Of a DNA stretch of 64,000 bases, positions 2,315 to 15,515 are shown one piece after another (the stretch's first letter is position 1; each line of letters opens with the position of its first letter). Origin of the DNA: Pelagicoccus sp. SDUM812005. Lineage in GTDB: Bacteria; Verrucomicrobiota; Verrucomicrobiia; Opitutales; Opitutaceae. The notes under the pieces were generated by a model, which saw only the letters and a program-made list of their open reading frames with translations, was not told the DNA's origin and searched no databases. The stretch covers positions 124,001-188,000 of the forward strand of contig NZ_JARXIA010000011.1 of assembly GCF_031127875.1 (NCBI RefSeq). The letters run 5' to 3'. The position numbers were made by a program, and so were the translations under genes.

Positions 2315-2971
2315 ATGTCTAAAGTGTTTCCAAAGTGGTCGAACGCGTTGCCACTGAAGATCGTTGTTTTCATCTTCGTCTTCGTGACTACGCTCCTTGC
2401 CGGCATCACCTACTACGTGACGCCGAATTACGTCAGAGTTGGCTATGAGCCAACCCAGCCGGTCCCATACGACCACAGTTTCCACGTGGGCGAGCTCGGG
2501 CTCGACTGCCGTTACTGTCACGATTCGGTCGACCAGTCTGACGTTGCGAACATCCCTGCTGCGGACACTTGCATGAAGTGTCACAGCATGATCAAGACGG
2601 ACAGCGACCTGCTCGCTCCGATACGCGAGAGCTACGCCACCGGCGATCCGGTTGCTTGGAAGCGCGTCCACGAAGTGCCGGACTACGTCTACTTCAGCCA
2701 CCAGGCTCACGTGACCCGCGGCGTTTCCTGCGTGGAATGTCACGGCCAGGTCAACGAGATGGAAGTCGTCTCCCACGCCGAGCCTATGAGCATGAGCTGG
2801 TGTCTCGACTGTCACCGCCATCCGGAAGAAGTCCTTCGTCCGGTCGACCAAGTCTTCAATCTCGACTGGGTACACCCAGGCGGAAAGCAGGGCCAGATCA
2901 AGGACGGCCTCAAGTTCGTTGAAGAACGCAACATCACTCCTCCTCAAAGCTGCACAGGCTGCCACCGATGA
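2315..2971 (+). CDS. actA: Alternative complex III subunit ActA, pentaheme cytochrome c
   Basis: Membrane-anchored periplasmic cytochrome of 218 residues. One N-terminal membrane helix (about residues 14-35) is followed by five CxxCH heme-binding motifs at C65-H69, C86-H90, C139-H143, C163-H167 and C213-H217. This matches the multiheme ActA subunit of alternative complex III, the quinol:electron-acceptor oxidoreductase that replaces the bc1 complex in many Bacteroidota, Verrucomicrobiota and Chloroflexota. ActA is thought to pass electrons from the iron-sulfur subunit towards cytochrome c or an oxidase. The stop overlaps the actB start by 4 bp. Upstream there is only a weak ribosome binding site. 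Confidence 0.96.
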   Translation: MSKVFPKWSNALPLKIVVFIFVFVTTLLAGITYYVTPNYVRVGYEPTQPVPYDHSFHVGELGLDCRYCHDSVDQSDVANIPAADTCMKCHSMIKTDSDLLAPIRESYATGDPVAWKRVHEVPDYVYFSHQAHVTRGVSCVECHGQVNEMEVVSHAEPMSMSWCLDCHRHPEEVLRPVDQVFNLDWVHPGGKQGQIKDGLKFVEERNITPPQSCTGCHR

Positions 2972-5900
2972 AACGCGCACCTTACAATCACCCTGAAACA
3001 GCGGAACTGTCAGGCCCGCGCTACTGGCGCAGCCTCGACGACTTGTCGCAATCTCCCGAATTCCTCGCTCAGGTAGAGCGCGAGTTCGGACCGGAAGCCT
3101 CCGAGATGAACGAAGTGGATCGTCGCCACTTCTTCAAGATCATGGCGGCATCCTTCGCGATCGGCGGACTCGGCTTTGCCGGCTGCCGCCGTCCGGAGTC
3201 CCATATCCTTCCGCATTCCAAGATGCCCGAGCACCAGATCCCTGGTCAGGCTCTTTATTATGCGACCGGTTTCCCGCTGCGCGGCGAAACGCTTCCGCTC
3301 CTTATCGAGACGCACACGGGCCGTCCCACCAAGGTGGAAGGCAACGCCGACCATCCCGGTTACAAGGGCGGCACCACCCGCAAGGCGCAGGCCGCCATCC
3401 TCGATCTTTACGATCCGGATCGCGCCACTGCCCATACCAAGGGCGGGTCCAAGATTAGCAACGCGGACGTCAACGATCTGCTTGCTTCTCTCAACAAGAA
3501 GTACGCCGCTTCCAACGGCAAGGGCGTCGCGGTTCTCGCCGAAAGCTCTTCCTCGCCAACGCGCCTTCGCCTCAAGAAAGCCTTCCTCAAGGCCTTCCCG
3601 CAAGCGACTTGGGCCGAGTACGACGCGATCGACGCGAGCAACGCTGGCATCGCAGCCGCCAAGGTTACGGGCAACGACAAGCTTCAGCCGAAGTACGACC
3701 TTTCCAAGGCCTCCCGCATCCTTGCGGTAGACGCTGACTTCCTCGACGAAGAGCAGGGCTCGGTACAGTTCTCCAAGCAGTTTGCAGAAGGCCGCCGCGT
3801 TCGTTCCAGCAAGGACGCGATGAATCGCCTCTATTCGGTAGAGAGCAATTTCTCGATCACTGGCGCCATGGCGGACCACCGCAAGCGTCTCGCTTCCAGC
3901 CAGATGGTTTCCTTCTTGGCGGCCGTCGCACTCGAGCTCGACCTCGGCGTAGAAGGCAATGCCCTGAACTCCGTTCTCAGCCCGCTCGCGAGCAAGCTCG
4001 ACGCGGAGACTCAGGAATGGGCGGCCAAGTGCGCCGACGACCTCGCTCAGCACAAGGGCGAGAGCCTTGTCTTCGTAGGCCAGCACCTCTCGCCGGAAGC
4101 CCACGCTCTCGGCCTCTTGGTCAACGAGAAGCTCGGCAACCTGAAGAAGACTGTTTCCCTCGTTTCCATAGACAACGGCAAGACCGCTTCCATCCAGGAC
4201 CTCGCATCCAGCATCGAGGCAGGATCGGTAAGCTCGCTCGTCATCCTGGGCGGCAATCCCGTGTACAACGCTCCGGCGGGAATCGACTTCTCGGCGCTTC
4301 TCGAGCAGGTAGGGGAGGTCGTTCGCCTCGGCTACTACGCCGACGAGACTTCCGAAAAGTCGACTTACCACATCACGCAAGCCCACTTCCTGGAAGCGTG
4401 GGGCGATGGCCGCACCTACGGTGGCGACGTGGTGGCGCAGCAGCCGATGATTCTTCCTCTCTTCGACGGCGTATCCGAAATCGAAGTACTCGCTCGCCTC
4501 GTTGGCGAAGCGAATCCGGACGGTTACAGCCTCGTGTACGCAACCTTCCAGGCTGCCAAGGGTACGCCCGGCAAGCGCGCCTTTGAAGCGTTCCTCAACG
4601 AAGGCTTCACCGCTGACGGCTACCGGGTTTCCAACAGCAACGTTTCCGGGCTCGAGCTCGCTAACCTGCTGAAGGGCTTCAAGGCTCCCGCGGCTCCGAG
4701 CAAGGACAGCCTCGAAGTTCGTTTCCTCAACGACGCATCCGTCGATGATGGCCGCTTCGCCAACAACGGTTGGTTGCAGGAGTGTCCGGACCCGATGACT
4801 AAGTTGACTTGGGATAACGCTATCATCGTTAGCCCCAAGTTTGCGAAGGATCTCGGCATCGTCGCTCCTGACTCCGCGATCCAAGTTGCCCGCAAGAACC
4901 CGAACAAGGTTCGCGACGGTCGCCAGTTCGCTTCGGTTGCTACCATCAAGGTGGACGGCCGCGAAGTTACCGGCGCGATCCACATCCAGCCCGGTCTCGA
5001 CAACTACACGGTTGTATTGCCGCTTGGATACGGTCGCACCAAGACGGGCCGTGTTGGTACAGGCTCGGGCTTCAGCGCTTACGCGATCCGTTCGGCTGCC
5101 GCTTTCGTCACGAACGCGACCTTGGCCCTGACCGGCGCGGAATACCAGCTCGCGAGCACTCAAGAGCATTGGTCTATGGAAGGCCGCGCCATCGTTCGCG
5201 AAGGCAATCTCGAAGACTACGAGGCAGACAAGGATTTCGTATCCAAGATGGGCATGGAGTCGCACTCCCCAGCTATTTATGCTGGAGCCGAAGACATGCC
5301 GTTGCAGGAGAAGGTGAGCGAAACGCCTCGTGGCGGCTCTATCTACGAGCATCCGGATCTCACTGGCATCCACCAGTGGGGCATGAGCATCGACCTCAAC
5401 GTTTGTACGGGTTGTAACTCTTGCGTTATCGCCTGTCAGAGCGAAAACAACATTCCGATCGTGGGACGCGACCAAGTTCGCCGTGGCCGCGAAATGCACT
5501 GGATTCGCCTCGACCGTTACTTCTCCTCTGGCGCGAAGGACAACACGGAGATCCCAGAGAATCCGCAGGCTTCGCTCCAGCCGATCGCGTGTATGCATTG
5601 CGAAACGGCGCCGTGTGAAACGGTTTGCCCTGTAAACGCGACGGTTCACGACGAAGAAGGCCTCAACGCCATGGCGTACAACCGTTGTATCGGTACCCGC
5701 TACTGCGCGAACAACTGTCCTTATAAGGTGCGCCGTTTCAACTTCTTCGATTACCAGCAACGCGAGCTCGATAAGCTCTACATGGGGCCGCTCGCTCCGA
5801 AGGGCATGCCGGAGCTCGTGCAGATGGCTCAGAATCCGGACGTATCCGTGCGCATGCGCGGCGTGATGGAGAAGTGTACTTTCTGCGTGCAGCGCATCAA

Positions 5901-6291
5901 CCAGGCGAAGATCGCCCAGCAGGCCAAGGCCGGCGACGGCGGTGACGTACGAGTCCGCGACGGAGCGATCAAGGTCGCTTGCGAGCAGGCTTGTCCGACG
6001 GATGCTATCGTATTCGGTGACCTGAAGGACGCGAACAGCCGCGTTTCGCAACTTCGCGAAAACGAGCGTTCGTACTCGCTTCTTGGATACTTGAACACGC
6101 GTCCTCGCACCACGTTCATGGCTCGTATCCGCAATCCAAATCCGGAGATGCCAGATTACTACGAGATGCCTCTCTCCAAGAAGGAGTACAAGGCAAAGGC
6201 CCCGAAAGGAGCTTCCCACGATTCCCATGGCTCGCATGACGAAGACCACCACGACTCACACTCAGATACAGCTGAAGGAGGACACCACTAA
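2968..6291 (+). CDS. actB: Alternative complex III subunit ActB, molybdopterin-oxidoreductase-like and iron-sulfur fusion
   Basis: 1107 residues. The N-terminal part carries a Tat-like signal near residues 50-72 ([20 protein letters not shown], then a Cys). It is followed by a molybdopterin-oxidoreductase-like region (about 75-780) that in this family binds no molybdenum. The C-terminal part, from about residue 800, is a ferredoxin-like electron-transfer domain with four cysteine groups: [35 protein letters not shown] and CTFC followed by [10 protein letters not shown]. These fit the [3Fe-4S]/[4Fe-4S] chain of ActB. The protein ends in a tail with about eight histidines in the last 27 residues (around 6208-6288). 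The start ATGA overlaps actA, and the TAATG junction with actC shares one base. Confidence 0.96.
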
Positions 6292-7751
6292 TGGCCGGCG
6301 CTAGCTCCCATTCTCAAGAAGTGAGACCCGCGATTCTCGATGAAGTGAATCCGGTCGATATCCCGCGCCAAGCGTGCGTGGATAACAACCGTTCCTTCAA
6401 TTGGATCACTGAGAAAATCTGCGGTATCATCGAAGAGAAGACTCCTACCTGGTGGTGGGTGTGCTTCATCATCGCTTGCGCCACCGCAAGCTTCACCTTC
6501 ATCGGTCTCGGATACCTCGTAGTCACGGGTGTCGGCGTTTGGGGTCTGGCCAATCCAGTTAACTGGGGTTGGGCGATCGTAAACTTCGTATTCTGGATCG
6601 GTATCGGCCACGCGGGTACGCTGATTTCGGCGATTCTCTGTCTGCTCCGGCAGAAGTGGCGTACTTCGATCAACCGCGCGGCGGAAGCGATGACGATCTT
6701 TGCGGTGGTCTGTGCGGGCTTGTTCCCGGTCTTCCACGTCGGTCGTGTCTGGTTCGCTCTCTATCCGGGCTATCTCTTCCCGTTCCCGAATGCGAACGGC
6801 ATCTGGCCGAACTTCCGTTCGGCGCTGCTGTGGGACGTGTTCGCGGTATCGACTTACGGTACGGTTTCCGTGCTCTTCTGGTACATCGGCCTGATTCCTG
6901 ACTTCGCGACCGTTCGCGACCGCGCCAAGACGAAGTTCCGCAAGATCGCCTACGGCATCGTGGCCATGGGCTGGCGCGGATCGAACCGCCACTGGAGCAA
7001 CTACGAGATGCTTTACCTCATCTTGGCTGGTCTCTCCACGCCGCTGGTACTTTCGGTACACACTATCGTATCCTTCGACTTCGCGATCTCCTTGGTCCCT
7101 GGTTGGCACACCACCATTTTCCCGCCGTACTTCGTTGCTGGCGCGATCTTCTCCGGCTTCGGCATGGTTATCACCTTGATGCTGCCCCTGCGCGCCATCT
7201 ACGGCCTGCAGGACCTCATCACCCAGTACCATATCGACTGTATGACCAAGATCATCTTGGCGACCGGTACCATGGTTGGTTACGCCTACGGCATGGAGTT
7301 CTTCATCGCTGCCTACGGCGCGAACGACTTCGAAATCTTCGCTTTCGTGAACCGCGCTTTCGGCAACTACGCCTGGGCGTACTGGATCATGATTTCCTGT
7401 AACGTTATCTCTCCTCAGTTCTTCTGGTTCAAAAGCATCCGCGAGAACACGACGCTGGTTTGGGTTATCTCCCTCTTCGTCAACGTCGGCATGTGGTTCG
7501 AGCGTTTCGTTATCACCGTGACCTCCCTGTCCCGTGACTTCCTTCCTTCGAGCTGGGGTTACTACTCTCCAACAGTGGTGGACATCTTCACTTACCTTGG
7601 AACTTTCGGTCTCTTCTCGGTGCTGTTCCTGCTCTTCCTTCGCTTCGTGCCTCTCATGGCCATGGCGGAAATCAAGGCAGTAACCCCGCAGGCTGATCCT
7701 CACCACGCGCACACTCACAAAGCCGGCAGCGGCGACTACGTTAATAACTAA
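6291..7751 (+). CDS. actC: Alternative complex III subunit ActC, NrfD-like quinol-binding membrane subunit
   Basis: 486 residues, about ten hydrophobic helices, of the NrfD/PsrC family. In alternative complex III this subunit provides the menaquinol or ubiquinol oxidation site facing the periplasmic iron-sulfur subunit ActB. Recognisable stretches are the N-terminal [18 protein letters not shown] helix and the conserved [14 protein letters not shown] region near residues 145-160. The C-terminal tail is histidine-rich ([13 protein letters not shown]). The start overlaps the actB stop by one base, and the stop is one base before actD. Position and size match the canonical actABCDEF order. Confidence 0.96.
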
Positions 7752-7752
7752 A

Positions 7753-8283
7753 ATGGCGGACAAATTTGGAATTCTCGCAAAGTTCGACACCCCGGCTGAC
7801 ATCATGCATGCGGCCGAGAAGGTGAGGGACGCTGGCTTCAAGCGCTGGGACGTGATCACGCCTTTTCCGATCCACGGCATGGACGGGGCCATGGGCCTCA
7901 AGCGCTCTTGGGTACCGCGTTTCACGATCGTGGGCGGCACGACCGGATTCATCACCGGTATGAGCATGATCTTCTTCACCAACGCGTTTGACTACAAGAT
8001 CCTGATCGGCGGCAAGCCGCTCTTCAGCCCGTACTTCGCCTTCCCGGTGTCCTACGAGCTCACCATCCTCTTCTCTGCCTTTGCTTCGATCATCGGCATG
8101 TTCATCCTCAACAAGCTGCCAATGCATTACCATTCGGCGCTTAAGACCGAGAAGGTGGCGGAAATGTCCGACGACAAGTTCTTCCTCTACATCGAGTCTG
8201 AAGATCCACAGTACGACGACGTTAAGACGCGCTCCTTCATCGAGGGGCTGCATCCGGTCGAAGTTTCCGACATGGAGAAATAA
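7753..8283 (+). CDS. actD: Alternative complex III subunit ActD (DUF3341)
   Basis: 176 residues. The soluble start (FGILAKFDTPADIMHAAEKVRDAG) is typical of DUF3341 proteins, followed by two membrane helices (about residues 56-75 and 96-116) and the motif KRWDVITPFPIHGMD ahead of the first helix. ActD is a small integral subunit of alternative complex III without cofactors. It starts one base after the actC stop and ends four bases before actE, within the same operon. The length is normal for the family and no anomaly is visible. Confidence 0.95.
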   Translation: MADKFGILAKFDTPADIMHAAEKVRDAGFKRWDVITPFPIHGMDGAMGLKRSWVPRFTIVGGTTGFITGMSMIFFTNAFDYKILIGGKPLFSPYFAFPVSYELTILFSAFASIIGMFILNKLPMHYHSALKTEKVAEMSDDKFFLYIESEDPQYDDVKTRSFIEGLHPVEVSDMEK

Positions 8284-8287
8284 CGAG

Positions 8288-8902
8288 ATGCGCTACGTAT
8301 ACCTGATATTTGCATTCGTCGTGATCGCGGCGGTAAGCGTGCTCGGCTTCCGAGGCACAAAGACGACAAAGCGTCCTCTCGAAATCTTCGACGACATGGA
8401 CCACATGCCAAAGTACCATCCGCAGGCGGAGAGCGCCTTCTTCGCGGATGGACGCACCGACCGCTTGCCCGTTCCCGGCACGGTCGCTCGCGGCACGTTC
8501 GAGCCGGATGCCTACAAGGCGACCGGCAAGAACGGCGAGGCTTACGGCAACGGTTTCCCGATCGAGGTGACTCAAGCCGCCATGGAGCGCGGCGAGGAAC
8601 GCTACAACATCTATTGTACGCCCTGCCACGGCGCTGCGGGTGACGGCCAAGGCCGCACGGCTGCCTTCGGCATGACGGCGATCGCCAACCTGACAGCTGC
8701 TCCTTACACGGACATGGCGGATGGCGAACTCTACCACTACATCGCAAACGGTAGCCGCAGCGGACGTATGTTCGGCTACAAGGAAAAGCTTTCGGTCGAA
8801 GACCGTTGGAAGGTCGTTCTCTACGTCCGCGCTCTCCAGCGCGCAGCGAACGGCTCCGTCAAAGATTTAACTCCTGCTAGCAAGGAGGAACTAGGACTAT
8901 GA
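8288..8902 (+). CDS. actE: Alternative complex III subunit ActE, monoheme cytochrome c
   Basis: 204 residues. The N-terminal membrane anchor (RYVYLIFAFVVIAAVSVLGF) is followed by a periplasmic linker with the ActE-typical IFDDMDHMPKYHPQAESA stretch. The cytochrome c domain has the heme motif CTPCH at C110-H114 and a likely axial methionine in SGRMFGY (M161). The ATG at 8288 was chosen because it sits four bases after the actD stop and directly precedes the anchor. A longer frame starting at 8081 lies inside actD and is rejected. The stop overlaps actF by 4 bp. ActE is an electron exit subunit of the complex. Confidence 0.95.
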   Translation: MRYVYLIFAFVVIAAVSVLGFRGTKTTKRPLEIFDDMDHMPKYHPQAESAFFADGRTDRLPVPGTVARGTFEPDAYKATGKNGEAYGNGFPIEVTQAAMERGEERYNIYCTPCHGAAGDGQGRTAAFGMTAIANLTAAPYTDMADGELYHYIANGSRSGRMFGYKEKLSVEDRWKVVLYVRALQRAANGSVKDLTPASKEELGL

Positions 8903-10125
8903 GTGCAGAACGCGACGCTTCGCTTCCGAACCCAACTAAGTGGCTATTGATCGGTGCCGTTGGCCTGATCATCTCGTTTATCGGCATGTTCGTCGATCCA
9001 CGGATGGCCTCCTTCTGCTATCTGATCGGCATGATCTTCACCACGTCGATCACCATCGGAATGCTGTTCTTGGTGATGATTCACCATATCTTCGACGCCT
9101 ACTGGTCGACCGTTATCCGTCGTCAGGCGGAGAACTTCCTCGCTGCCCTCCCATGGATGGCGGTGCTCTTCATCCCGCTCTTCCTCATCACGTACCTCTA
9201 CAAGCAGGATACGCTTTGGATCTGGATGGATCTCGACCATGAGCTCCATGGACACGGCACCGTCGGAACGGATCCCCTCTACCTCAAGAAGACTTGGTGG
9301 TTGAGCGAGACCTTCTTCTGGATTCGCGCGGTGGTCTGCTTCCTCGCATGGATCTACTTCGCTCGCACCTTCCGTCGCAACTCCTTCTCCCAGGACGAAG
9401 ACGGATCCGCAGAGCACACCTATTCGAGCCGCAAGCACGCCGCGGGTGGATTGATCGTGGTGGCCCTCACGTGGTCCATGGCCGGCTTCGACTGGATTAT
9501 GTCCCTCGAGTACCACTGGTTCTCCACCATGTTCGGGGTTTGGTTCTTCGCCAATTCCATGCGCGCCGCGCTCGCGGTCTTGGTATTGGTCGCGGCCTTC
9601 CTGGTGGCGAAGGGGCCTCTCAAGGGCATCTTCAACACGAAGCACCTGCACGACCTCAGCACGTTGTGCTTCGCCTTCACGGTTTTCTGGGCCTACATCA
9701 GCTTCTCCCAGTACTTCCTGATCTGGAACGGAAACATTCCTGAAGAAACCTTCTGGTACAACTTCCGCGAGGAGGGCATGTGGTACGGCGTATCCATGTT
9801 CCTGATCTTCGGTCACTTCCTCTTCCCGTTCCTGTTCATGCTACAGTTTCCGCTGAAGACCAAGTACCCAGCCATGGTGTTCATGGCTTGCTGGATCCTC
9901 TTCATGCAGTTGTTCGATCTGATCTTCAACATCCTCCCGTCCTTGAAGGTGCATGGGCATACCGCTCAGCTTTTCCACCAGCCTCTCGGCTTCCTTTGGC
10001 TCGCAGCTTCCGTGCTGGGTGGCATCGGAGTCCTGCTCTGGGCGTATTGGACCAGCTACTACAAGGTTAAGATCATCCCAATTCGCGACCCTCGCATAGG
10101 GGAGTGCTTGAACCACAACCACTAG
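8899..10125 (+). CDS. actF: Alternative complex III subunit ActF, NrfD-like membrane subunit
   Basis: 408 residues with about ten membrane helices, homologous in fold to ActC (NrfD family). Recognisable stretches include MLFLVMIHHIFDAYWSTVIRR near the second helix and TWSMAGFDWIMSLEYHWFS in the middle. In this complex ActF is the second NrfD-like subunit and its quinone site is generally considered degenerate or absent. The start overlaps the actE stop by 4 bp. The stop TAG lies eight bases before the next small gene, so transcription very probably continues into the oxidase-like genes. Confidence 0.95.
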   Translation: MSAERDASLPNPTKWLLIGAVGLIISFIGMFVDPRMASFCYLIGMIFTTSITIGMLFLVMIHHIFDAYWSTVIRRQAENFLAALPWMAVLFIPLFLITYLYKQDTLWIWMDLDHELHGHGTVGTDPLYLKKTWWLSETFFWIRAVVCFLAWIYFARTFRRNSFSQDEDGSAEHTYSSRKHAAGGLIVVALTWSMAGFDWIMSLEYHWFSTMFGVWFFANSMRAALAVLVLVAAFLVAKGPLKGIFNTKHLHDLSTLCFAFTVFWAYISFSQYFLIWNGNIPEETFWYNFREEGMWYGVSMFLIFGHFLFPFLFMLQFPLKTKYPAMVFMACWILFMQLFDLIFNILPSLKVHGHTAQLFHQPLGFLWLAASVLGGIGVLLWAYWTSYYKVKIIPIRDPRIGECLNHNH

Positions 10126-10133
10126 TTTCTCAA

Positions 10134-10415
10134 ATGACACAAGCGCACACACCATCGCGTAGTTCATTCCCGGTCGTCGTCGCAATCATTGGATTGTTCC
10201 TGCTTTTCTGGTTCCTCACCAGCAAGGTATACGTCGACTCGACCGAGACTGAAGAAGTATCGAACTTCACAGTGCCAGACAAGACGCTTGCGGAACACCG
10301 CGGCGAGGCTGAGTCACTCCTCTCAACGACCAAGGTTACCGATGCCGCTAACGGCAAGGTTCGCCTTTCTATCGAGCGAGCTAAGGAGCTCGTGATCGCC
10401 GAAAACGCCAAGTAA
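10134..10415 (+). CDS. Small single-helix periplasmic-facing protein between actF and the ccoN-like gene
   Basis: 93 residues. A basic start (MTQAHTPSRSS) is followed by one membrane helix (about residues 12-31, PVVVAIIGLFLLFWFLTS) and a charged periplasmic tail ending KVRLSIERAKELVIAENAK. The last block resembles the short 'VR-I-RAMELV' motif I associate with small proteins of oxidase and complex III operons, but I cannot name a family with certainty. The ATG at 10134 is preferred over the upstream start at 10104, which lies inside actF. It may be a small subunit that helps dock the ccoN-like module on alternative complex III. Confidence 0.75.
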   Translation: MTQAHTPSRSSFPVVVAIIGLFLLFWFLTSKVYVDSTETEEVSNFTVPDKTLAEHRGEAESLLSTTKVTDAANGKVRLSIERAKELVIAENAK

Positions 10416-10457
10416 GAGGTTTCTCGACGCCGCGTACTCGCACTCTCGAACTAAGCT

Positions 10458-11939
10458 ATGAATTTGATCTGCAACCTCTTTTCGTCGGTCTTCCCCAGTC
10501 TGGGAGGCGACGGATCGCAGCGTGAAAGGGAACAGACGATCGACTCGTCCATGCGCTTCGCGGTGCTTGGGCTGATCAAGGGCTCAGTTTTCTGGCTGCT
10601 TGTCGCTTCCTTGCTCGGATTGATCGTTTCGATCAAGCTGCACTCTCCGTCCTACCTTTCCGAATACGGCTGGCTGAGCTATGGCAAGGCCTACCCCGCG
10701 TTCTGGAACGCATTGGTTTACGGATGGCTTTTCAACGCGGGCCTCGCTTGCGTGGCTTGGATCATCGCTCGTTTGGGCGGACGTCCGAGCGGGAACAGCG
10801 GTCTTCTCGCCATTTCCGGCGGCGCTTGGAACATCGCGGTGATCATCGGCCTGTTTGGCATCTTCAAGGGAGACCAGAATCCGTACCGCATGCTCGAATT
10901 CCCGAGCTACGCAGCTCCTTTCCTCTTCGCTGCGTTCATCGGAATCGGAATTTGGATACTGCTGGCCTTCAAGGCTCGCGCTTACCGTTCCTCCTACGCG
11001 TCCCAATGGTACGCCTTGGCGGGGGTGTTCAGCTTCGTTTGGATTTTCTCCATCGCTCAAGCCATGATCTTCTGCATGCCGGCCCAAGGCATTTTCCAGA
11101 GCGTCGTGGCTGCTTGGTTTGGAGGGAACCTGCTCGGCTTGGTCGTGGCGCCTTTCGCTTTTGCCACGATCTACTACTTGATTCCCAAGGCCCTCGGCCA
11201 GCACATCGTGGGCTACCGCCAGTCCGGCATCGCCTTCTGGAGCTGGATCTTTTTCTCCAGCGCGGCTGGCTTGGCTTCCTTGGTGAACGGTCCGTTCCCG
11301 GCATGGGTGGCCTCGGTAGGCGTGGTCGCTAGCTTCGGCCTCTTTTTGCCGCTTTCCGTATTTACGATGCAGTTCCTCTCTAGCTTGTTCGCAAGCTTTT
11401 CGAAGATCTGGGACACGCTTTCTGTGCGTTACGTCTTCTACGCGGTTTTCGCGTTCATCGTAGCCACCGCTTTGACGATCCTCGGTTCGCTGCGCGGAAT
11501 TCAGGAAGTTACGCAGTTCAGCCAGTTCAACGACGGCGTGCGTTACCTTTTCCTCGTCGGCTTCGCGGGCATGGCTTTCACTGGGATGGTCTACTACATC
11601 TTGCCGCGCTTGCTCAACAAGGAGCTTCCCAACCCTTCGCTCGCGGATCTGCAGTTTTGGGTTCAGGGCCTCGGCATATTCCTCGTAACGGTAAGCTTGG
11701 TATACGGTGGCTGGGCCCATGGAGCCCTGCTTAACGGCAGCGACGCCGATACGATAGCGATCCTGCAGAACACAAAAACTTACCTCTTCCTGACGACCAT
11801 CGGTTCGGTTCTGTTCGCGATCGGAAACTTCGCTTACGCCGTATCGTTCGTTTGGATACTCCTCTCTCCTCGCACTGAGAAAGAGCAATCCGCTGACTTG
11901 ATCGAGCCAGCTCCTGAACTCGAGTACACGCACTCATGA
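10458..11939 (+). CDS. CcoN-like protein (cbb3 oxidase subunit I homologue) lacking all heme and copper ligands
   Basis: 493 residues, about 12 membrane helices, the length of a cbb3 catalytic subunit. Landmarks of CcoN are kept: YYLIPKAL (240-247) and YYILPRLLNKE (379-389) match the two Y-x(1-2)-(I/V)P(K/R) motifs, and GYRQS and PAW occur in the expected order. All six metal-binding histidines are replaced when I align it with a remembered Pseudomonas CcoN. They become F82 (low-spin heme), G223 (CuB), A273/S274 (CuB pair) and V361/Y363 (helix-X pair), and the histidine of the YRLSIVHFW motif becomes A259. Only four histidines remain in the whole protein, none at those places. The frame is intact and overlaps the ccoO-like gene by 4 bp. 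It is probably a structural scaffold and not an oxygen reductase. Confidence 0.88.
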   Translation: MNLICNLFSSVFPSLGGDGSQREREQTIDSSMRFAVLGLIKGSVFWLLVASLLGLIVSIKLHSPSYLSEYGWLSYGKAYPAFWNALVYGWLFNAGLACVAWIIARLGGRPSGNSGLLAISGGAWNIAVIIGLFGIFKGDQNPYRMLEFPSYAAPFLFAAFIGIGIWILLAFKARAYRSSYASQWYALAGVFSFVWIFSIAQAMIFCMPAQGIFQSVVAAWFGGNLLGLVVAPFAFATIYYLIPKALGQHIVGYRQSGIAFWSWIFFSSAAGLASLVNGPFPAWVASVGVVASFGLFLPLSVFTMQFLSSLFASFSKIWDTLSVRYVFYAVFAFIVATALTILGSLRGIQEVTQFSQFNDGVRYLFLVGFAGMAFTGMVYYILPRLLNKELPNPSLADLQFWVQGLGIFLVTVSLVYGGWAHGALLNGSDADTIAILQNTKTYLFLTTIGSVLFAIGNFAYAVSFVWILLSPRTEKEQSADLIEPAPELEYTHS

Positions 11940-12562
11940 ACAGAGGACCTTTCATTTTTATCGGTGTGCTGATCATTGTCTCGCTCTCTTGGGCGGTGAC
12001 TCTCGTCAAGCCAATCCAAGAAGCGGGCAACCTGGCTCCGATCGGCAAGGGCGAATCTCGCGTTCCGACCCTGCTGGCTGGCCTAGCGCTGCAAGGCCGC
12101 GAGGTCTACCAGGAGCAGGGGTGCGTGAATTGCCATACCCAGCAGACGCTGGCCACGGTTGGATCCGACATCGCTCGCGGATGGGGCGACCGTCAATCGA
12201 TGCCGCTCGACTACGTGGACCAGAGCCCAGTTTTCACGGGCTACAACCGAGTCGGTCCGGATCTCGCGAACGTCGGCACCCGCCGCACGGATGCCGACTG
12301 GCACTACCTGCACTTCTACAATCCGCAGATCACTTCGCCTGGCAGCAACATGCCTCCTTACGCTTTCCTTTTCGAAACGCGCAAGATCATTGGCCCCGCC
12401 TCGAATCGAGCGCTCGACTTGCCGGAAGGCTACCGTCCGGAAGAGGGCTACGAAGTGGTTCCCACTCCCGAAGCGAACGCCTTGGTTGCCTACATGCTGG
12501 GACTCAGCCAAGCCTACGACATTGAAGAGGCTCCCACGCCTGAAAAGCTCGCCTACAAGTGA
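11936..12562 (+). CDS. CcoO-like membrane-anchored monoheme cytochrome c
   Basis: 208 residues. The N-terminal membrane helix (about 6-24, FIFIGVLIIVSLSWAVTLV) is followed by the CcoO pattern: a GREVYQEQGCVNCH heme motif (C63-H67), RVGPDLANVG near 105-114 and SNMPPYAFL with the axial methionine M139. Canonical CcoO of cbb3 oxidases has the same order (one heme c, GPDLxRVG, SxMPxYxWL), so the assignment is firm at family level. It overlaps both neighbours (4 bp with the ccoN-like gene, 1 bp with the next gene). With a metal-free CcoN partner, this heme would be an electron relay without a binuclear centre in the same complex. Confidence 0.92.
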   Translation: MNRGPFIFIGVLIIVSLSWAVTLVKPIQEAGNLAPIGKGESRVPTLLAGLALQGREVYQEQGCVNCHTQQTLATVGSDIARGWGDRQSMPLDYVDQSPVFTGYNRVGPDLANVGTRRTDADWHYLHFYNPQITSPGSNMPPYAFLFETRKIIGPASNRALDLPEGYRPEEGYEVVPTPEANALVAYMLGLSQAYDIEEAPTPEKLAYK

Positions 12563-13218
12563 TGCAAGACGATCAAGAACAACCACATTTGCCAGGAGTC
12601 GACGCTAGCAAGGCGAGCGACGAGAGCGTTTTGCGCGTGCACGCCCAGATTCGCCGCAAGCGTATCGAGGGATCGCCGGTCGCGTTTTTCACCGCCGCCG
12701 CTTTGATCATCGTCTTCGTTTTCGCTTGGTTCTACCAACGTCGCTATTTCGCGGAATACGATTCCAAGGGCGTACTCGCCGAAAGGCAGCACATCGCTGC
12801 CATGGAAGCCTACAAGAACCGTCCGCAGGAGCCCGAAGGTCCAGTCGTCATCGATGGCGGCAAGCTTTACGCCCAGCAGTGCGTTGCCTGTCACCAGGCA
12901 TCTGGCCAAGGCCTTGCGGGAGCGTTTCCTCCGCTGGCTGGCTCGGAATGGGTTACAGGGGCGCCGGAGATCCCGATCAAGGTTCTGCTCTCCGGTCTCG
13001 GCGGAGAAATCCAAGTCAAGGGCAGCACCTACAATGGCGCGATGCCAGCGTTCGGTGCGGTGTTCGACGATGCTGAAATCGCTGCGGTCGTAACTTACAT
13101 CCGGGGCGAGTGGGATAACGGAGCCAGCGAGGTGACAGCCGAGCAGGTTGCGGCCATCCGATCGGAGATCGGCTCCCGTGGCGCTTGGACCGCCGCTGAG
13201 TTGGCGGAACACTTCTAG
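12562..13218 (+). CDS. CcoP-like membrane-anchored monoheme cytochrome c
   Basis: 218 residues. A cytoplasmic start of about 38 residues is followed by one membrane helix (about 39-57) and a periplasmic cytochrome c domain with CVACH (C107-H111), a FPPLAGSEW segment and the axial methionine in NGAMPAFG (M161). Canonical CcoP has two hemes in tandem, whereas this protein has one, so it is a CcoP-like or generic cytochrome c oxidase cytochrome. The start ATG at 12562 shares a base with the preceding TGA. An in-frame GTG three bases earlier is also possible. It is the last gene before the terminator and so ends the alternative complex III operon. Confidence 0.88.
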   Translation: MQDDQEQPHLPGVDASKASDESVLRVHAQIRRKRIEGSPVAFFTAAALIIVFVFAWFYQRRYFAEYDSKGVLAERQHIAAMEAYKNRPQEPEGPVVIDGGKLYAQQCVACHQASGQGLAGAFPPLAGSEWVTGAPEIPIKVLLSGLGGEIQVKGSTYNGAMPAFGAVFDDAEIAAVVTYIRGEWDNGASEVTAEQVAAIRSEIGSRGAWTAAELAEHF

Positions 13219-13275: not shown

Positions 13276-13442
13276 GCTTCTTACCATTTCGAGCGCAGGG
13301 GAGGGGTCGGGGAAGGCAGGCCCGATTCGTTGTTTCCGTATCTGCGGGGCATGTTTTTTTCGCTTGGGATTGTCTCGGCGAGGATCTCGCCTAGGTATTT
13401 TTGAGATTGTTCTGCGAAATGTTGCCCTGGAGTAAACGATAC

Positions 13443-15515
13443 ATGGAAGTTCGGTACCCGAGCCGAATGCGCGCAAGCGCTTGGATGGACGCGTGGCGGG
13501 GGGCGCTCCGGGTAGCAGCCTTGCTCGGTATCAGTTTTTGCGGCACTGTTTCTGTCGCGGACACGGGCGATCTGATGTCCTTGAGTCTGGATGAGCTGCT
13601 GGATGTGAGGATCACCGGAGCTTCGCTGATCGAAGAGAAGCAACGATGGGCCCCGGTCTCGACCACTGTGTTCACGGGGGAAGAGATAAAACGCATGGGG
13701 GTGGAAAGCATCGAGGCTTTGATGGATTACGTTCCCGGTTTCCAATCCTACCAGATGGGCGAGTCGGGCCATTCCCTGCCGTTTTCTTCGCGGGGGCGGA
13801 AGGTGGGTACCACCAGTCGAGAGGTGCTCGTCTTGCTGGATGGAGAGCGAGTGGATACAACGCTTTATGGCGGCGGCGCCTTTGCGGTTCCATTGATCTC
13901 GACCCGTAGCGTCGAGCGAGTCGAATACCTGAGGGGCCCCGGCTCGGCCTTGTACGGAACCGGAGCCTTTCTCGGCACGGTGAATATTGTTACTCGCAGG
14001 AACGCTCGAAGCTATGGAGCTCAAGTGGGCGCGAACGGCAGCCGCGAAGCCTACTTGTCCGCCAGCGGGGATACGGGGCCGCTTTCTTATAGCGTAAGTT
14101 TGCGGGCCTATGAGGACGATGGCGAGCGCCTGGCTGCCTACGATCCCTTTTCCGGATTTACCGAAACGACCGACCCTTTTACCGGTGAAGACCTCTCCTT
14201 GGGTCTTGAGCTCGAAGGGTGGCGGCTTACGTATCGGCGGAACCGTCGTCTGGCCGAGGACTTCTACGTGGTCGGGACTTTGAAGGATGGTTTCAACAAG
14301 TACGAAACGGTGTACGAAAGCGTCCACCTCCGTAAGTCGAAGGATTGGTCCAGGGAGCACCGGACCGAGTTTTCCCTAGGCTGGAAGGATTGGGAAGAGC
14401 AGGTCCGTTTCGTCTTTTTGCCGGAGGGGTACCTATCGGATGTGAGCGAGCCGGCGAGCGACGCTGAATTTCAGGCGAATACGCTTTTGAGGGAAAAGGA
14501 GTGGGGCGCGCGAGCGGTTCACGAATGGTGGTTCGGCAGCGAGGGGAGCTTGGTGTTCGGCGGGGAGTGGAGGTCTCCCCGGCTTAAGCAGGGTGAGGCC
14601 TACAGCAACTATGACCTCGGCGCGCTGGCGCGCGGGGATTTTCCGCTGCGCTACTATGGCGATTTGGACCAATCGACTCCCTTGTACGCGAAGAACGATC
14701 GCGAAGTCTTAGGCGCCTTCGGTCAGTTGAAGACGCATTTGGGTCATGACTGGCGTTTGACCTTAGGGCTTCGGTACGACCGGGACAGCTTGGTGTCCTC
14801 TCGCATTTCTCCGCGCTTCGGCTTGGTAAAGGATTTCGGGGAACGCGGACTGGTGCTCAAGTTCTTGTACAGCGAGGCGTTTCGCAGCCCTTCGTCGGTA
14901 GAAATGTTCACCATGAACAATCCCTTGATCATCGGGAATCCGGGATTGAAGCCGGAGGTGGTAGAGACTTGGGAAGTCGTCGCTCTCAAGGAGTTTGAGA
15001 ATCAAGCTCTGAGCGCATCCCTCTTTGAGAATCGCTTTCGTGATTCCATCGTGAACGGGTTCATCGACGGGACTCGAACGTTCGTGAATAGCGAAGAGGA
15101 GCGGAACCGCGGGCTCGAGCTCGAGTATCGGATCCAGGCGAGCGAATCCTTGCTGCTGCGTTCTTCCTACACCCGTTTCTTTTCCCAGCCGGAATCGACC
15201 TTTCGGGAGGCGAGTTCCTTGGCGTCGTGGGCAGCCAACTACGAGCTCGATCGCTGGAACGTTTCGCTCGGTAGCTCCTACCATGGCGAGCGCTCGATGC
15301 TGACCCCGGTCGAAGGCGAGCACTTGGAGCTCGATTCTTATTGGAGTACCAGGGGTAGCATTCGCTACGAGGTGAACGAGGCGGTCGACCTTTACGTTCA
15401 TGTGCTAAACGCTCTGGACGAACGGTTCCAAACGCCGCCCCAAGTCGAAACCTTGATCAGCGGTCTCGAGAACCGTGGCCGGCAATTCCGCATCGGATTC
15501 GATGCGGAATTCTAG
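13443..15515 (+). CDS. TonB-dependent outer-membrane receptor
   Basis: About 690 residues. A signal peptide is followed by a plug domain (SLDELLDVRITGAS, then VSTTVFTGEEIKRMGVESIEALMDY and the REVLVLLDGERVD / VERVEYLRGPGSALYG motifs) and a beta-barrel ending in aromatic-rich GRQFRIGFDAEF, the usual C-terminal outer-membrane signature. The start is uncertain. ATG 13443 has a GGAG eleven bases upstream, while 13467 and 13485 give shorter signal peptides (the hydrophobic core is ALRVAALLGISFCGTVSVA). The family resembles siderophore, vitamin B12 and metal receptors. No substrate clue lies nearby. It converges with proC, leaving only eight bases between the stops. Confidence 0.9.
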   Translation: MEVRYPSRMRASAWMDAWRGALRVAALLGISFCGTVSVADTGDLMSLSLDELLDVRITGASLIEEKQRWAPVSTTVFTGEEIKRMGVESIEALMDYVPGFQSYQMGESGHSLPFSSRGRKVGTTSREVLVLLDGERVDTTLYGGGAFAVPLISTRSVERVEYLRGPGSALYGTGAFLGTVNIVTRRNARSYGAQVGANGSREAYLSASGDTGPLSYSVSLRAYEDDGERLAAYDPFSGFTETTDPFTGEDLSLGLELEGWRLTYRRNRRLAEDFYVVGTLKDGFNKYETVYESVHLRKSKDWSREHRTEFSLGWKDWEEQVRFVFLPEGYLSDVSEPASDAEFQANTLLREKEWGARAVHEWWFGSEGSLVFGGEWRSPRLKQGEAYSNYDLGALARGDFPLRYYGDLDQSTPLYAKNDREVLGAFGQLKTHLGHDWRLTLGLRYDRDSLVSSRISPRFGLVKDFGERGLVLKFLYSEAFRSPSSVEMFTMNNPLIIGNPGLKPEVVETWEVVALKEFENQALSASLFENRFRDSIVNGFIDGTRTFVNSEEERNRGLELEYRIQASESLLLRSSYTRFFSQPESTFREASSLASWAANYELDRWNVSLGSSYHGERSMLTPVEGEHLELDSYWSTRGSIRYEVNEAVDLYVHVLNALDERFQTPPQVETLISGLENRGRQFRIGFDAEF

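Follow-up and report, generated by a model that had tools for sequence, protein, structure and literature searches.

Can a heme-copper oxidase subunit lose every ligand of its metal centres and still be kept by its host? The question is raised by one gene in a 64,000-nucleotide stretch of the Pelagicoccus sp. SDUM812005 genome (contig NZ_JARXIA010000011.1, positions 124,001 to 188,000; hereafter the window). The gene, here called N, encodes a CcoN-like homologue of heme-copper oxidase subunit I and stands between genes for alternative complex III (ACIII) and two cytochrome genes, O and P (Table 1). An initial annotation had proposed that N is a conserved, non-catalytic subunit without heme or copper ligands.

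Results

A subunit I homologue without its ligands

As the initial annotation held, N is intact and free of frameshifts – 493 amino acids from an ATG start – and aligns with cbb3 subunit I. A profile search matched residues 42–452 to PF00115 (2.2e-36) and a full subunit I fold is predicted, which together place N in that superfamily; each of the five PDB sequences matched by phmmer (E up to 1) is a cbb3 subunit I. Against the model for CcoN proper (TIGR00780), N falls far below the cut-off (94.8 bits against 583.15).

Ligand positions were mapped through the family profile onto the cbb3 structure 3mk7, with numbering offsets read by eye from that alignment. Residues 82, 223, 273, 274, 361 and 363 of N pair with H60, H207, H257, H258, H345 and H347 of chain A, which we take to be the ligands of heme b, heme b3 and CuB. 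In N these places read F82, G223, A273, S274, V361 and Y363: none of the six histidines of PF00115 is present, and the four histidines that do remain (62, 249, 421 and 492) all lie elsewhere, as had been claimed. The list of replaced ligands thus holds for these six. It does not hold for position 259 (the H of YRLSIVHFW), which had also been counted; this residue lies outside the six and is glycine in 10 intact relatives. A further loss had been overlooked: residue 267, aligned with Y251 – presumably the cross-linked active-site tyrosine of CcoN – is a serine. In lacking both the six histidines and this tyrosine, N differs from the cbb3 oxidase CcoNOP (3mk7, 8smr, 6xkw).

Sequencing error as the source of these losses is ruled out, because orthologues in seven other genomes of the genus likewise have none of the six histidines. 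That N has lost catalysis is close to certain, and we infer that the protein itself is free of cofactors.

The operon

The window holds an actABCDEF operon of ACIII, in which ActC, ActD and ActF were matched directly and ActA, ActB and ActE were recognized by domains and gene order. The small open reading frame that separates actF from N matched no family in profile searches and is 50–96% identical across the nine nearest operons. On the other side of N, O matches FixO, and P carries one CXXCH motif instead of the two of canonical CcoP. The coupling of N to its ccoO- and ccoP-like neighbours, proposed from the outset, is evident in the overlaps at both junctions. The order actA–F, small frame, N, O, P is shared by the seven other members of the genus. 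Beside the operon in the window we saw no oxidase gene, and the electron acceptor is therefore a guess.

Table 1. Genes of the ACIII–N–O–P region, in window coordinates.
Feature	Position	Strand	Basis and remarks
ActA, multiheme cytochrome c	2315..2971	+	5 CXXCH; QrcA model 1e-24 (below its cut-off); PF14522
ActB, iron-sulfur subunit of ACIII	2968..6291	+	4Fe-4S domains, position, conservation
ActC, NrfD-type ACIII subunit	6291..7751	+	PF03916 2.2e-20; 6f0k chain C 2.2e-185
ActD of ACIII	7753..8283	+	PF11821 7.4e-62
ActE, monoheme cytochrome c of ACIII	8288..8902	+	cytochrome c domain, one CXXCH; start by eye
ActF of ACIII	8899..10125	+	6f0k chain F (ActF) 1.4e-62
Small open reading frame between actF and N	10134..10415	+	one hydrophobic stretch by eye
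N, CcoN-like heme-copper oxidase subunit I homologue	10458..11939	+	without six His ligands and active-site Tyr
O, CcoO/FixO-like cytochrome c	11936..12562	+	one CXXCH; PF02433 7.4e-24; 4-base overlap with N
P, cytochrome c	12559..13218	+	one CXXCH; PF13442 9.8e-13, PF00034 2.7e-12; 4-base overlap with O
TonB-receptor-like frame after P	13401..15515	+	704 residues; by eye from translation

Intact and degenerate forms in relatives

The finding proved wider than the single oddity first described. Orthologues beside act genes recur across the verrucomicrobial class, some intact (all six ligand histidines) and some degenerate (fewer than six), and the operon place that N occupies in the window is filled by an intact oxidase in many relatives. 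A near set of 38 genomes, the window's own included, gave 34 with a match, and 30 N sequences were read: the window and nine relatives have no ligand histidine, ten have all six and ten have none to three. All 29 other regions carry act genes 5′ of N and cytochrome genes 3′. Of the 384 genomes in a class-wide search, 312 gave a match, ordinary CcoN included. The sample comprised the 30 sequences of the near set, the 30 best-match loci of the class-wide search and 75 regions hand-picked for family spread, together with 80 of 386 named loci and the loci of one more search, and is not random; five further stretches that were redundant or uninformative were left out. Among the 80 named loci, three of the four closest carry Pelagicoccus in their titles. 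Twelve paralogue loci, all with six histidines, were dropped before counting (L075, L076, L279–L282, L284–L289).

Among the 202 distinct N sequences that resulted, 106 have all six histidines and 96 have fewer (L131 and L181 are a likely near-duplicate pair left among the latter). The degenerate copies keep none (42), one (38), two (11), three (3), four (1) or five (1); 80 of the 96 therefore retain at most one, and 68 replacement patterns occur overall. The column of the active-site tyrosine, which was not used to define the two classes, holds tyrosine in 106/106 intact and 3/96 degenerate copies, so that ligands and tyrosine have been lost together.

Two copies are intermediates: L142 has five ligands (HRHHHH) and the tyrosine, L240 four (HHARHH) and no tyrosine. 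Three members of family f27 (L152, L154 and L156) keep both heme b histidines without the ligands of CuB and heme b3 (HNQRYH), a pattern suggesting a form that may hold low-spin heme b only.

The fetched DNA contained no act gene at ten intact loci (L068, L071, L072, L137, L148, L151, L230, L231, L256, L266) and two degenerate ones (L254, L283), in several cases simply because the stretch ends there. Two of the former, L068 (genome G005, on a contig that begins just before N) and L071 (genome G006), are second, intact N genes with O and P genes in the window's genus. A third, L072 (genome G020, 9692–12679), has its intact N within a 995-residue frame; the same genome also carries an ACIII-linked intact N.

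Farther afield, three relatives on betaproteobacterial plasmids, picked from the five listed among 379 records, are intact, and two of these carry the annotation N-O-P; eight matches from other classes within the phylum have six histidines each. The intact plasmid copies, together with function itself, make the intact form the likely ancestral state.

N is under purifying selection in the window's genus. Its median dN/dS is 0.075, based on 18 usable pairs among 21, with dS near saturation; O, P and ActF have similar medians of 0.095, 0.078 and 0.072, and ActC, at 0.027, is far more tightly constrained. The median for N spans 0.09–0.32 in other degenerate groups against 0.05–0.13 in intact ones, from which it follows that degenerate copies are more loosely held yet still constrained. 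Their cytochrome partners retain the heme c motif: at the 78 degenerate loci with act genes, window included, CXXCH is present in 73/73 O and 77/77 P genes detected, O being undetected in five and P in one.

How often the ligands were lost

A tree of ActB and ActC (102 rows, 77 of them degenerate, the five-ligand L142 included) needs 17 changes between intact and degenerate states, 16 of them forced by branches of 95% support; a tree of O and P (95 rows) needs 14, nine forced. The states are nonetheless more clustered than chance, shuffled labels giving means of 22.7 and 21.5, respectively. For N itself the count drops to four changes, or to six in a careful 50-row tree, which could reflect fewer losses combined with movement of N from one operon to another. 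The N data are nevertheless compatible with the operon trees: in the careful tree the intact L140 and L143, the five-ligand L142 and the degenerate L170 and L177 form a single clade (99/97), and the AU test leaves two further mixed sets standing (p 0.61 and 0.44). In a larger N tree the best topology holding those five and L187 together beat the free one. If loss is taken as irreversible and midpoint rooting is assumed, the counts become 26 (ActB and ActC), 15 (O and P) and 7 (N).

Both forms occur within a single genus code (g83, family f35), where G358 is intact and G070, G377 and G235 are degenerate. Between G358 and the degenerate members ActC is 94% and ActB 79–80% identical, and N just 49–52%; in intact copies from two families the figures are 77% for ActC and 70% for N. 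N thus changed fast when its ligands were lost.

Other oxidases in the same genomes

Whether the window's genome has an intact ccoN or another oxidase gene, a question left by the initial annotation, can be addressed from its seven PF00115 genes: beside N there are a CcoNO fusion that scores above NCBI cut-offs (648.4 bits on TIGR00780) and five more. The genome also has a second, diverged ACIII cluster (L073; G000 C96:144000-160000; ActB–F 25–49% identity), which lies near its best PF00115 gene (C96:151334).

PF00115 was searched for in 79 genomes that carry a degenerate N. Each gave two or more matches, and its strongest reached 7.9e-111 or better. In contrast, N is the sole match in three of 50 genomes with an intact N (G034, G176 and G040; the 50 include G145, with five of six ligands), which is what one would expect of an intact N that works as an oxidase. 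An A-type-like oxidase gene lies 3′ of N-O-P (same strand, within about 6 kb) in at least 21 of the 79 and at least five of the 50, positions having been compared by eye and Pfam-checked in one genome of each form. In G050 (degenerate) and G180 (intact), Pfam identifies COX1, COX3 and COX2 genes after P.

Methylacidiphilum-like genomes

Genes resembling pmoA were present in all 11 genomes of family f26 that were searched. In three Methylacidiphilum-like genomes (G050, G058 and G067) the ligand places read S, E, S, H, F and V, leaving one histidine. The order in G050 is actABCDEF-N-O-P followed by aa3-type genes, and none of its six PF00115 genes matched ccoN at 1e-10 (NCBIfam). In three papers the gene adjoining ACIII in these methanotrophs is called a cbb3 oxidase (PMC8498564, PMC6688271, PMC11102522), and in one of them the high oxygen affinity of these methanotrophs is explained by the ACIII-linked cbb3 (PMC6688271).

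In G067 a nosZ/nosD/cytochrome c cluster lies between actF and the degenerate N (L290, 4336–11640), which places N2O reductase genes inside the ACIII operon; much the same nos arrangement is described in M. caldifontis IT6 (PMC11102522).

Discussion

A central issue is what remains for N to do. Probably it is a scaffold that docks two cytochromes on ACIII and so provides an electron bridge to another oxidase. This is the simplest account, since the fold and the cytochromes are kept, the catalytic site is lost and the linkage to ACIII is steady. On this view the ancestor of N was the catalytic subunit of a C-type-like heme-copper oxidase whose genes followed those of ACIII. Here, and independently in other lineages, it would have lost the sites for heme b, heme b3 and CuB and turned into a membrane scaffold that keeps O and P, both c-type cytochromes, docked on ACIII. 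Quinol electrons would then pass from ACIII through O and P to another oxidase, either A-type or the cell's true cbb3, and in some lineages the acceptors could be other periplasmic reductases. We infer the scaffold role, the physical assembly of N, O and P with ACIII and the direction of electron flow alike.

Might N simply be decaying into a pseudogene? It has outpaced its neighbours after ligand loss, as the comparison with ActC within one genus code makes plain. But decay is scarcely credible given 96 distinct degenerate sequences with long open frames, the low dN/dS in the window's genus and persistence over whole families; the same operon place in 7/7 other genus members and the recurrence across the class likewise uphold the original view of a conserved, non-catalytic subunit. 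A subtler proposal is that N has retained or acquired an activity of its own – a low-spin heme bound through other residues, a quinol site, or conduction of protons or ions along the former channel – and is no mere scaffold. Both heme b histidines survive in 5/96 degenerate copies, three of them the HNQRYH members of one family, so not all degenerate N need be cofactor-free; moreover, many polar and aromatic residues are conserved across both classes (for example D29, Q183, W184, Y185, Y239, Y240 and K244). We judge such an activity unlikely for the window, in whose genus neither heme b position holds a usual ligand (F82; Y or F363), and where the residues kept in intact copies and missing here include the six ligands, Y267, Y333 and H307, among others. 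A role outside electron flow, in the assembly or stability of ACIII or of its two neighbouring cytochromes O and P, would fit the operon linkage and conservation equally well. However, the two heme c motifs co-retained in the operon suggest that electrons still cross the module, which makes such a role quite improbable.

A separate matter, compatible with any of these roles, is how the degenerate form arose. One ancient degenerate paralogue, or a few, may have replaced intact N across many operons through recombination, as opposed to many separate losses: the N tree needs four changes against 17 for ActB and ActC, and intact N genes exist without act genes in the fetched DNA (L071, L137 and L151, for example). 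We nevertheless hold this origin to be rather unlikely, because intact and degenerate copies share a well-supported clade and two more mixed sets stand unrejected, because degenerate copies have longer branches that attract one another, and because the replacements follow so many different patterns.

A precedent for the preferred reading, N as a scaffold, is found within ACIII itself: ActB is a molybdoenzyme-like subunit without molybdenum, likewise an enzyme subunit kept structurally after loss of its cofactor, although the superfamily differs. The ACIII-linked C-type oxidase of Opitutaceae and verrucomicrobial methanotrophs, described in PMC8498564 with reference to Refojo 2010, occupies the same place behind ACIII. 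It figures in that literature as an oxidase, whereas here 96/202 copies lack at least one ligand and 80 lack five or six. In Flavobacterium johnsoniae ACIII is joined in a supercomplex to the aa3 oxidase that it feeds (PMC8361435, PMC8552683). That partner is catalytic, whereas the module encoded beside ACIII here is a degenerate N-O-P, which in some lineages lies between the ACIII and A-type oxidase genes. No heme-copper subunit I described without its ligands was found in the titles, abstracts and passages of open-access PMC text that the search covered.

On balance we favour the view that an oxidase has turned many times into a metal-free electron bridge whose cytochromes serve as the outlet of ACIII, and that the Methylacidiphilum “cbb3” is thus no oxidase. 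Genes that the literature counts among high-affinity cbb3 oxidases have lost five of six ligands in three Methylacidiphilum-like genomes. A single operon place that holds both intact and degenerate forms, once within one genus code, amounts to a natural experiment in the passage from enzyme to scaffold, and through it the onward transfer of electrons from ACIII becomes testable in cultured strains.
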